Shown: piece after piece, positions 21,253 through 31,350 of the stretch | Numbering within the stretch: the first letter of the stretch is position 1 | Layout: every line of letters begins with the position of its first letter | Source: a virus | DNA length: 36,475 nucleotides | Direction: 5' to 3' (one strand) | Virus record (IMG/VR): IMGVR_UViG_3300028031_000008 | Coordinates: 1-36,475 of that record | Notes under the pieces: generated by a model | Seen by the model: the letters and a program-made list of their open reading frames with translations, nothing else | Told to the model about the DNA's origin: nothing | Databases searched by the model: none | Translations under genes and position numbers: made by a program

Positions 21253-21296
21253 AACCCTCCAAGCCAATTAGCAATGCTCAAATCGGAGGGTTTTTA
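21253..21296. terminator. Terminator between convergent lysis and accessory operons
   Basis: AACCCTCC (21253-21260) and GGAGGGTT (21285-21292) form a perfect 8-bp stem, followed on the + strand by more T (21293-21295). The 24-nt loop contains smaller self-complementary bits. The element lies four bases after the o-spanin stop and overlaps the 3' end of the - strand phosphoesterase gene, whose stop is at 21268. It works best on the + strand; - strand action would lack a strong T-run. Confidence 0.7.
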
Positions 21297-21931: not shown

Positions 21932-22284
21932 TATCTTTCTGACTCCGTAATAATATACTGAATAGCATTTGCCATGTATGTAACAGATGATGCCAGCTGG
22001 GTTTCTAATAAATTATCTATGTATAAAGCCCTTCCCTTTGTGCGATAATCTATGCCAAATATTTCTACACCTTCGAGCACCTTAGGGAACGTAACATTTT
22101 CACAATCATAAATAAAATCATTATCATCAACTATATATTTTCCGTTTTCCAGCCCTTTACGAATCCGAACAGATACCACCTCGCCATCTCGTAACATACA
22201 GGTTGTTGGTATAATTACATCACCATTACCGTCAAGATACGCTACTCGTGAAGACTCTAGTATTTTGTTGATTGTATTCATCAT
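21931..22284 (-). CDS. DUF1828-like hypothetical protein
   Basis: A 117-aa protein. The segment DGNGDVIIPTTCMLRDGEVV and then VRIRKGLENGKYIVDDNDFIYD resembles DUF1828-type domains, whose members read I-x-I-x-[x]-x-G-x-Y-x-[IL]-[ST]-D-D-G. The likeness is moderate. It is linked to neighbours by ATGA and TAATG overlaps. No function can be stated. Confidence 0.6.
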   Translation of the reverse strand: MMNTINKILESSRVAYLDGNGDVIIPTTCMLRDGEVVSVRIRKGLENGKYIVDDNDFIYDCENVTFPKVLEGVEIFGIDYRTKGRALYIDNLLETQLASSVTYMANAIQYIITESER

Positions 22285-22826
22285 AATATAATTCCATGTT
22301 TTTTATTAAACCAGTCTTTAGCTTTTTGTATATCTTCTTTACTATGTGTGATATTCTCATTCATTTCAACATAGAAACACCCAACCTGATCCCATTCACA
22401 GAAATCATATATGCGAATTGCTATTGAGGTTCTAAAATGCTTAATTAAATCACCATATTCATGATAATAATATCCAAATGCTTTTATTTTTCCTGATATA
22501 AATGCCATTATTGCTGTACATCTTTGCAGACCATCAATTACCTTGGCTTCATCACAATCATTCAATATAAAAAACAACAATTCAGTTTTTACACCCGATA
22601 ATAAGTTTTCAATAAACTTAACCTGCATTTTCTCTGACCATTTATTATTTGCACGTTGAAATTCTGGAGTTACATAGCCTATCCACATGCTATCAACAAC
22701 ATCTGTGCGATAGTGTGTATGTAGTTTTATTTGTCCAACAAAATCATAAATACTAATATTCACTGAATAATTGGCCATATTAAATGAGCTATTCCTAGCT
22801 CGGTATATTACGTCCCCTATAGTCAT
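22281..22826 (-). CDS. Standalone DUF262 (GmrS/ParB-like) protein
   Basis: A 181-aa protein with TPEFQRANNKWSEKM (P-E-F-Q-R, 54-58), a FIENLLSGVKTELLFFIL strand and VIDGLQRCTAIMAFI (D-G-L-Q-R, 98-102). These are the P-x-[YF]-Q-R and D-G-Q-Q-R motifs of DUF262, the ParB/sulfiredoxin-like nucleotide-binding half of GmrSD-type modification-dependent restriction systems. Usually it is followed by a DUF1524 HNH nuclease; here the protein ends after the first domain. The Q to L change in DGQQR is notable. A decoy, anti-restriction or nucleotide-sensing role is an inference. Confidence 0.75.
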   Translation of the reverse strand: MTIGDVIYRARNSSFNMANYSVNISIYDFVGQIKLHTHYRTDVVDSMWIGYVTPEFQRANNKWSEKMQVKFIENLLSGVKTELLFFILNDCDEAKVIDGLQRCTAIMAFISGKIKAFGYYYHEYGDLIKHFRTSIAIRIYDFCEWDQVGCFYVEMNENITHSKEDIQKAKDWFNKKHGIIL

Positions 22827-28266: not shown

Positions 28267-28343
28267 TGGTGGCGAGGGAGGGAGTCGAACCCCCAAATTA
28301 TCAAGCCATGAACCTTGACCGCAAATCCTCCTGCTTCCCCTCC
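28267..28343 (-). tRNA. tRNA-like gene, CAT anticodon likely, 8-nt anticodon loop
   Basis: A 77-nt element on the - strand ending in an encoded CCA (28269-28267). Acceptor GGAGGGG pairs with CCTCGCC with one A-G mismatch and one G-U. D arm is GCAG/TTGC with a GAGGAT loop. T arm GGGGG-TTCGACT-CCCTC is canonical. The anticodon stem TCAAG/CTTGA encloses GTTCATGG, eight nucleotides instead of seven. Read with U33 as the third loop base, the anticodon is CAT (Met or Ile2); read one base earlier it is TCA. Position 8 is A rather than the near-universal U. It could be a functional variant, a frameshift-suppressing tRNA, or a decayed copy. Confidence 0.7.
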
Positions 28344-29771: not shown

Positions 29772-30048
29772 ATATATGCGAGTGAATATACCGTCCGATG
29801 TTGCGGAGATTATCAAGCATCATGCTAATAAAGAAAATAAAGAGATGAAGGAAATATTAGTCGATTGTTTCAATGAGGTTTATATTTACCCAAACGAAAA
29901 GAAAAGACTGCAAAATTCCATCACCAAGCAAGAAGATGCTCTTGAAAAGTTGGAATCTAAAGTTAAAAAACTAAGATATATGTTGCGACAAATTAATGGC
30001 GTAAGTAGCGTAAGTAAATTTAGAGGAGAAGAAGGATGGCTAGTTTAA
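29764..30048 (+). CDS. Ribbon-helix-helix-like / coiled-coil protein (94 aa)
   Basis: A 94-aa protein. Residues 1-40 (YMRVNIPSDVAEIIKHHANK, then EMKEILVDCFNEV) resemble a ribbon-helix-helix DNA-binding fold: beta strand with alternating residues, then two helices. Residues 45-80 are a predicted coiled coil (SITKQEDALEKLESKVKKL). It overlaps the SSB gene by 13 nt. A DNA-binding accessory to replication is inferred. Confidence 0.62.
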   Translation: MNKYMRVNIPSDVAEIIKHHANKENKEMKEILVDCFNEVYIYPNEKKRLQNSITKQEDALEKLESKVKKLRYMLRQINGVSSVSKFRGEEGWLV

Positions 30049-30473
30049 ATCAATGGACTGGAATAGGTAACCTCGGAGCAGATGCGGAAATCCGTCAAAC
30101 TAATGACGGAAAAACTGTAGCAACATTAAATCTTGCGTGTTCTGAATCTTGGACTGATAAAGCATCTGGTGAGCGTAAAGAAAAAACTGAATGGATAAGG
30201 ATTGTTGTATTCGGAAAGCCTGCTGAAATAATCGAGAAATACACTAGCAAGGGCAGTCAAATACACGTCACAGGAAAGTTTCAAACTCGCAAATGGACTG
30301 ATAAAGATGGAGTTGTGAAATATACTTCTGAGATAGTTGTGTCTGGATTCGGTGGGGGAATTATCCTGCTTGGTAGCAAGAAAGATAGTCCTGTGCCTGC
30401 TAGTGATGGTTTTACTGGCAAGACTGACGCATACGTTGACAATGGGATTGATGACGACGATTGCCCCTTTTAG
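30036..30473 (+). CDS. ssb: Single-stranded DNA-binding protein
   Basis: A 145-aa OB-fold SSB: NQWTGIGNLGADAEIRQTNDG, then ATLNLACSESW, KEKTEWIRIVVFGKPAEI, and KGSQIHVTGKFQTRKW with DGVVKYTSEIVV. These are canonical bacterial-type SSB elements. The C-terminus ends DDDDCPF, the acidic tip that recruits partner proteins (host SSBs end DDDIPF); C in place of I is a small change. It coats ssDNA during replication and ERF-driven recombination. Confidence 0.96.
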   Translation: MASLNQWTGIGNLGADAEIRQTNDGKTVATLNLACSESWTDKASGERKEKTEWIRIVVFGKPAEIIEKYTSKGSQIHVTGKFQTRKWTDKDGVVKYTSEIVVSGFGGGIILLGSKKDSPVPASDGFTGKTDAYVDNGIDDDDCPF

Positions 30474-30516
30474 CACTTGCAATTAATCCTCAACTAGATA
30501 TACTTAAATATATCGA

Positions 30517-30627
30517 GCCTCCAGTTGGACGGCAGATATTATAAAAGACTAGCTAGGTTTAGCGACCGAAAACCTGTTCTCCACAGCAGGTTGCTAGTCT
30601 AAACAATGTGGACTATTAGCCGTGGAG
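30517..30627 (+). ncRNA. Bistable structured leader with loop-to-SD pairing
   Basis: The 160-nt gap between ssb and the replication initiator holds ordered helices. A small hairpin lies at 30517-30533. An 8-bp stem AGACTAGC (30546-30553)/GCTAGTCT (30593-30600) encloses two mutually exclusive hairpins: AGGTTT (30555-30560)/AAACCT (30570-30575), or AACCTG (30571-30576)/CAGGTT (30587-30592). The second hairpin's loop exposes CTCCAC (30579-30584), complementary to GTGGAG (30622-30627), the initiator gene's ribosome site. No T-run is present. This looks like a translational switch; a DNA-level role is possible. Confidence 0.6.
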
Positions 30628-30633
30628 GGTTGA

Positions 30634-31350
30634 ATGACTGAAAACGAATTTCGAGATTTTATTATTGACAGCGAACTAGACTCAAAGTCTAAGTTCATCG
30701 CATTCCTATTATTGCACTACAGAAACAGAAAAACTGGTAAGTGCTACCCATCTCAACAAACATTATCTAGTGCGTCAGGTTATTGCACCAACGCCATTAA
30801 ATCAGCTACACAGAATTTAGAAGATGCAGGGTTTTTAAAAGTAACTCGTGCCAGATTAAAAGGCAATAAATTCACCAATATATTTTATGTGTTTAGTTTT
30901 GACCCCTCACCAGATGAGGTATCAAATGAACCCTCAAATGAGGTGTCAAATGACATCGCACCAGATGCGTATAAACCTATAGAACCTATTAAACCTAAAA
31001 AACCTAGTAAGAAAGAAAAAGTAATTAAAAAGAAAACTAACCTTCCTGATTTTATCGATAAAGATTTATGGAATGATTTTATAGATATGAGAAAGGGGTT
31101 AAAGAAGAATCCAACAGAATTGGCAATAGAGCTTCTTATTAAAAAACTTACCAAATTTAATGATGAAGGACAGGATACGAGTAAAATATTAGAAAACAGT
31201 ATAATGAATAGTTATCTAGGGCTATTCGCAATTAAAGAACTTAACCAAAAAGGAGATAGCAATGCAAAATCAAACGGACTCACAGAAATGGAAAGAGCAA
31301 CAGAGCAAATGCGGATTAACAGGGAAGCTAGATACGGAACAAGGGCTTAA
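30634..31350 (+). CDS. Replication initiator (lambda O / HTH_36-like)
   Basis: A 238-aa protein. Residues 1-90 form a winged helix (FIAFLLLHYRNRKTGKCYPS, QQTLSSASGYCTNAIKSATQ, LEDAGFLKVTRAR), typical of HTH_36 initiators. Residues 91-135 are a Pro/Lys linker with KPI-EPI-KPK-KPS triplets. The C-terminal part (LWNDFIDMRKGLKKNPTELA, then LENSIMNSYLGLF) matches the C-terminal domain of phage replication proteins that bind helicase or loader. The internal DNA has repeats like the lambda ori in gene O. GGAGGG gives a good ribosome site that can be masked by the leader. No helicase or polymerase is encoded, so host replication enzymes must be recruited. Confidence 0.82.
   Translation: MTENEFRDFIIDSELDSKSKFIAFLLLHYRNRKTGKCYPSQQTLSSASGYCTNAIKSATQNLEDAGFLKVTRARLKGNKFTNIFYVFSFDPSPDEVSNEPSNEVSNDIAPDAYKPIEPIKPKKPSKKEKVIKKKTNLPDFIDKDLWNDFIDMRKGLKKNPTELAIELLIKKLTKFNDEGQDTSKILENSIMNSYLGLFAIKELNQKGDSNAKSNGLTEMERATEQMRINREARYGTRA
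30905..31009. other. Candidate replication origin inside initiator gene
   Basis: Two iteron-like units, each CCTCA-N(5 or 2)-TGAGG followed by TRTCAAATGA, lie at 30905-30929 and 30932-30953. They are followed by four tandem 9-bp units AACCTANNN starting at 30974, 30983, 30992 and 31001, then a strongly A-rich stretch. Palindromic iterons plus an AT-rich segment within the initiator gene match the layout of lambdoid ori. The 9-bp repeats also encode the KPx linker, so protein-level selection could explain part. Confidence 0.5.

Follow-up and report, generated by a model that had tools for sequence, protein, structure and literature searches.

A putative int-alpA RNA leader before a phage replication initiator gene, with one loop and two candidate downstream partners

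In plasmids of the IncI/IncB type, a pseudoknot activates repZ and an antisense RNA opposes it. The int-alpA RNA (Rfam RF02996) was reportedly described by Weinberg et al. in 2017. Rfam classes it as sRNA, and no assignment of a function to it was found in the literature searched. Two phage RNAs act in trans on leader sequences. The c4 RNA of P1 binds the region around the ant ribosome-binding site (PMC12197685), and the CI RNA of P4 has two target sites, seqA and seqC, in the same leader and controls replication genes (PMC4825925).

The leader analyzed here lies in an IMG/VR virus record of 36,475 bases (IMGVR_UViG_3300028031_000008), hereafter the window, which belongs to a tailed phage with terminase, portal and tail genes. 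Like c4 (P1/P7, RF01695), it is a structured phage RNA with a loop complementary to the ribosome-binding region of its target (PMC12197685). In contrast to c4, it has a different fold, and its single loop faces two copies of the same partner. The c4 model gave no match in the window by cmscan, either at the gathering score or at E 0.3. With the CI RNA of P4 the leader shares one RNA segment that is complementary to two sites in its own leader (PMC4825925), here called PK1 and PK2. However, in P4 the sites lie on either side of the RNA and work through transcription termination, whereas both sites of the window lie downstream and one of them is the Shine-Dalgarno sequence (SD); fold, site order and genes all differ. 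The likeness to repZ lies in a loop pairing close to the initiator ribosome site, but the window has no evident antisense gene. An earlier note on this DNA had drawn the analogy to IncFII/IncI plasmids. No antisense RNA gene was seen in support of it, and the c4 and P4 CI RNAs would be the closer mechanistic analogues.

Fold and transcription start of the window leader

The leader sits between ssb (30036-30473) and the initiator gene (30634-31350). Its features, all on the plus strand, are the following.

30036-30473 (+): gene for SSB (single-strand DNA-binding protein), upstream of the leader; Pfam SSB, E 9e-30
30537-30542 (+): probable -10 box (TATTAT), 9 nt before the first nucleotide of the RNA; from the position of TATAAT-like hexamers in the family
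30546-30612 (+): int-alpA RNA core (P1, P2, P3 and the 3' partner PK1); RF02996 34.7 bits, held-out model R1 44.7 bits
30546-30600 (+): stem P1, 30546-30553 with 30593-30600; minimum-energy fold and family model
30556-30567 (+): hairpin P2, GGUU 30556-30559 / GACC 30564-30567; family fold, energy and held-out model R1
30571-30592 (+): hairpin P3, 30571-30578/30585-30592, hexaloop CUCCAC 30579-30584; minimum-energy fold, loop covarying with both partners family-wide
30607-30612 (+): PK1, UGUGGA pairing with UCCACA as the first partner of the P3 loop; position conserved in the family
30616-30633 (+): SD hairpin P4, arms UUAGCC and GGUUGA around the loop GUGGAG, stem 30616-30621/30628-30633; energy and family comparison
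30622-30627 (+): PK2, the P4 loop GUGGAG, exact complement of the P3 loop; beyond the Rfam model, which stops at 30612 here
30634-31350 (+): gene for an O-like replication initiator of 238 aa, downstream of the leader; PHROG 678 replication initiation O-like, E 1.6e-28; Pfam HTH_36

The minimum-energy fold of 30546-30640 consisted of exactly P1, P2, P3 and P4 (-28.1 kcal/mol). The outer 8-bp stem of the earlier note was recovered at 30546-30553/30593-30600. The same was true of its second hairpin, which extends over 30571-30578/30585-30592 and exposes CUCCAC at 30579-30584. As had been claimed, this loop is exactly complementary to GUGGAG (30622-30627), the SD of the open reading frame at 30634. 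The additional GUGGA at 30608-30612 was also found, and read as UGUGGA (30607-30612) it makes a 6-nt pairing. That the SD itself forms a hairpin loop (P4) had been overlooked. A small open reading frame at 30606-30641 (MWTISRGGLND) overlaps the initiator start; it is without an SD, and there was no sign of it in relatives.

The earlier note had also proposed a bistable pair of hairpins that share AACCT and exclude each other. This was rejected on energy as well as homology. Together with the outer stem, the first of these hairpins (30555-30560/30570-30575) reached -12.5 kcal/mol, which is 9.6 kcal/mol worse than the outer stem with P2 and P3 (-22.1 kcal/mol). It is also absent from leader L101, which has the same P2 sequence as the window and an unrelated P3, and where the shared AACCT is without counterpart. 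In the family fold, P2 coexists with P3 in a three-way junction of P1, P2 and P3.

The hexaloops of P3 and P4 in the window are perfectly complementary, which in the predicted fold favors a kissing interaction. Simple duplex values gave -7.0 kcal/mol for PK1 and -8.0 kcal/mol for PK2, and by these values the two pairings would be close in energy, as required of a switch. The match between loop and SD is not decisive from the window alone: in 9.8% of cases a letter-shuffled loop still found an exact 6-nt complement within 30601-30633, and the z-score of the fold was -1.98. It is the comparison between members that is decisive.

Over the 89 viral members described below, TATAAT-like hexamers with starts between -17 and -6 from the RNA (P1) gave 54 counts, and further upstream there were about 1-2 per 10-nt bin. 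Since these hexamers are placed just before P1, the RNA probably begins at the 5' end of its transcript, and in the window the first transcribed nucleotide would fall at about 30546-30549. A good -35 box was not apparent before the window RNA. A possible promoter at 30477-30504 was at chance level and was discarded; the -10 box at 30537 suits the family better. On the minus strand, a promoter-match scan revealed one promoter-like match near the leader (30685-30656), with the total count at chance level, and no counter-transcribed antisense RNA gene was seen over the leader. This bears on antisense control of the IncFII/IncI type, to which the leader has a superficial likeness in its loop pairing beside the initiator ribosome site. 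The single minus-strand match at chance frequency argues against such control, as do the position of the partners on the same strand and the occurrence of family members before unrelated, non-replication genes. We consider such control very improbable.

Membership in the int-alpA RNA family

When the leader was scanned permissively against Rfam, RF02996 matched over the full model length with 34.7 bits, slightly below the gathering score of 35.8; standard Rfam annotation would miss the window copy. The E-value was 5e-6 when the leader stretch was searched and 1.2e-3 when the whole window was searched. A held-out model, R1, was built from 45 other int-alpA members with the window excluded. It found 30546-30612 over its full length (1-69) with 44.7 bits and an E-value of 1.1e-12, as the sole match in the window. 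The P1-P2-P3 junction with the CUAG and GAAAA motifs (CTAGGTTTAGCGACCGAAA) is present in the window, and the family fold is the minimum-energy one. By sequence and predicted fold, the window RNA is thus an int-alpA member with the conserved three-way junction, sharing with the family this junction, both motifs, the P3 loop and the 3' tail. The earlier note had known of no described phage RNA with this layout; its core is that of int-alpA. The setting differs from the one in which an integrase lies upstream and an alpA-like gene downstream, an arrangement that is not universal in the family; in the window the RNA stands between ssb, upstream, and the O-like initiator gene, downstream.

In the Rfam model the 3' tail is unpaired, and P4 as well as the second loop partner, PK2, lie outside the model. 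The model would thus stop short of the likely functional 3' half. Above the Rfam cut-off, RF02996 was matched in 67 of 300 genomes from a sample of the order to which an Achromobacter belongs, and in 38 of 369 from a sample of the class to which a Pseudomonas belongs. The window itself was without close relatives. No close relatives of the initiator or of the next gene were found in IMG/VR, no DNA relatives of the leader among phage records, no match to the exact leader pattern, and none to the primase-gene query against genomes. The sequence of P2 and the junction was found again in 23 IMG/VR stretches.

The P3 loop and its two partners across the family

The comparison drew on 158 RF02996 matches in phage records and in the genomes of several groups. 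A simple script was used to delimit P3, with four members left out as misparsed. Most of the 244 members have a P3 loop with two downstream partners, PK1 directly behind P1 and PK2 at the ribosome-binding site. The PK1 sequence is repeated 5-10 nt further downstream as PK2, at the SD. In the window, loop, PK1 and PK2 read CTCCAC / (T)GTGGA / GTGGAG. Examples from other members are CACCCTTA / TAAGGG / AAGGG, ATCGTCA / TGACGA / GACGA, CTAGAACCA / TGGTTC / GGTTC and TTCATCAC / GTGATG / TGATG.

Pairing of the loop was compared with controls in which partners were swapped between members, and which leave shared ancestry in place. In the genome set (n=153), at least 5 contiguous pairs were present for PK1 in 82% of members vs 24% swapped, and for PK2 in 75% vs 35%. 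Most loops of this set contain CCUU or CCCU and are anti-SD-like, so part of its PK2 signal is plain SD, and weight there lies only in the swap controls and the odd loops. An independent set was needed for this reason, and also since part of PK1 is contained in the Rfam model. Therefore, IMG/VR was scanned with two 19-base patterns that cover the CUAG, P2 and GAAA parts only, which gave 89 distinct loci; of the records found in this way and searched, 44 of 50 also matched RF02996. In this viral set, at least 5 contiguous pairs were present for PK1 in 89% vs 12% swapped, and for PK2 in 70% vs 19%. When only viral loops lacking CCUU, CCCU or CCUC were taken (n=73), the values were 89% vs 14% for PK1 and 68% vs 16% for PK2. 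The observed means were reached in 0 of 1000 permutations in every test, for the genome set and the viral set alike. Covariation among homologous leaders, the check that the earlier note had proposed, is thus present: over the 244 members, the loop-SD pairing and the upstream partner that competes with it are both conserved, and both covary.

A narrow set (A5) of 22 leaders with an almost invariant core, many of them before DUF1376-type initiator genes, was in line with these results. For PK1, 100% of cells were paired and 25 double changes were counted; for PK2 the values were 84% and 18. When the partner was slid along, pairing of both PK1 and PK2 was at most 50%. One of the five PK2 pairs (column 39-79) was unpaired in 10 of the 22 sequences. 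The 3' half of a wide MAFFT alignment (A3) is misaligned, so its pair counts were set aside in favor of the permutation tests and A5. Across these sets, loop, PK1 and PK2 vary as a triplet.

These data bear on the possibility that there is no switch, that PK1 is part of a tertiary fold for a protein or another partner, and that the second copy is an ordinary SD resembling PK1 since most loops are anti-SD-like. The stronger and more regular pairing of PK1 fits this, and so do the many genome-set loops with CCUU or CCCU. PK2, however, also tracks loops that are not SD-like, changes together with the loop in the matched set and sits in a conserved hairpin loop, and we regard this explanation as unlikely.

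Across the family, PK2 is usually carried by the loop of its own small hairpin, P4. A stem score of at least 10 was obtained for 75% of the viral set vs 25% with the arms swapped, and for 64% of the genomes vs 31%. The sequence of this stem varies between members and the pairing is kept. Start codons follow PK2 at SD distance, typically 5-7 nt. Among the 161 members with both partners, the PK1 and PK2 pairings share at least 4 loop bases in 156. Because both draw on the same bases, a single loop is unable to hold the two at once. PK1 is usually the longer pairing, and about one quarter of the members are without a 5-nt PK2 as parsed.

A proposed gate on translation and the genes behind it

From the comparative data, we propose with a probability of roughly two in three that the int-alpA RNA gates translation of the next gene by two mutually exclusive pairings of its P3 loop. 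When the loop kisses PK2, ribosome binding would be blocked and the initiator off. When it pairs with PK1, the loop would be occupied and the SD free. Which partner is held could be set by co-transcriptional folding, by cleavage or by a second RNA copy in trans, and the balance would determine the amount of initiator and the timing of replication start. As PK1 is longer, the loop may seldom reach the SD in cis. Of the pseudoknot switch on initiator translation put forward in the earlier note, the conserved loop-SD pairing stands, with gating as its best reading on the sequences compared, and the bistable hairpins do not. The layout with two partners would offer a concrete, testable mechanism for int-alpA RNA and a target, the ribosome-binding site of the next gene. 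Five RF02996 copies speak against a gate (L187, L190, L191, L193 and L246). They keep the loop and are without both partners or without a downstream gene, and may be decayed copies or stand-alone RNAs. In L246, a terminator-like inverted repeat lies behind the RNA.

By analogy with c4 and P4, the RNA might instead confer immunity in trans. The leader would be cut or terminated to an RNA of about 70 nt from a resident prophage, and its P3 loop would pair with PK1 and with the SD hairpin of fresh transcripts, both being targets, so that the early or replication operon is silenced. Such a role would fit the two complementary sites per RNA, comparable to seqA and seqC of P4 (PMC4825925), and the binding of c4 around the ant ribosome-binding site (PMC12197685). 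The Rfam type, sRNA, is also consistent with it, as is the diversity of the loops over a conserved core, with 153 distinct loops among the 244 members. Three phages with two copies carry different loops, each fitting its own targets, but this is expected by chance given the number of loops. In some genomes separate copies share a loop (L100/L103, L135/L243 and L123/L224), and the loop would be self-occupied when PK1 is attached, both of which would weigh somewhat against action in trans. We consider this reading possible, though improbable on balance; if the RNAs do act in trans, they would form a large new group of prophage and island repressors with loop specificities readable from sequence. 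The gate might be used in cis, with folding order or cutting setting the balance, or in trans, with a free copy silencing fresh transcripts. A broader picture, offered tentatively, is that int-alpA RNAs are widespread leaders of mobile elements whose single hairpin loop selects either a decoy or the SD hairpin, with a freely changeable specificity. Free copies may act in trans, so that each phage or island could carry an RNA-based code of its own, for immunity or for timing, that governs its first early gene (in the window the replication initiator).

The genes led by int-alpA RNAs are varied. In the genome set the RNA lies behind an integrase in 61 of 119 members, and an annotated E. coli locus has the order integrase, RNA, DUF6387 and helix-turn-helix regulator, the setting behind the family name. 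The first genes downstream are very diverse in genomes; integrase-adjacent, HNH and methyltransferase genes are also led by these RNAs. Among viral members HNH endonucleases are the leading group (HNH_3 in 17 of 86). DUF1376, primosomal or O-like initiators lie downstream in about 11 of 86, and the setting of the window thus recurs. In viral members L254-L276, int-alpA leaders stand repeatedly before genes of homing-type HNH endonucleases, a recurrence that hints at joint movement of the RNA and the nuclease gene.

Within the initiator gene of the window, repeats (CAAATGAGGTNTCAAATGA / TGACCCCTCACCAGATG) were seen at 30900-30967 and are probably a lambda-like origin. The location between ssb and the initiator gene could also point to a DNA element, such as a single-strand origin or a protein site, rather than an RNA. 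Against this stand the likely transcription start at one end, the start codon at the other and the partner at the SD, the same element before integrase-adjacent, HNH and methyltransferase genes, and the likely origin repeats inside the initiator gene. A DNA element is thus very unlikely.

Elsewhere in the window, an abiF RNA (RF03085) was matched above cut-off (40.3 bits) at 21255-21291 on the plus strand, where the late genes end. A search beside it revealed no Abi_F-like gene, and the match, which also resembles an intrinsic terminator (AACCCTCC...GGAGGGTTTTT), is possibly an orphan copy. The tmRNA model gave 17 bits against a cut-off of 47 at 28267-28343 on the minus strand, a very weak match that could be the remnant of an attachment site. 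On the minus strand at 22281-22826, a protein with a GmrSD_N (DUF262-like) domain is encoded, which matches the defence models NsnA and PD-T4-2_A.
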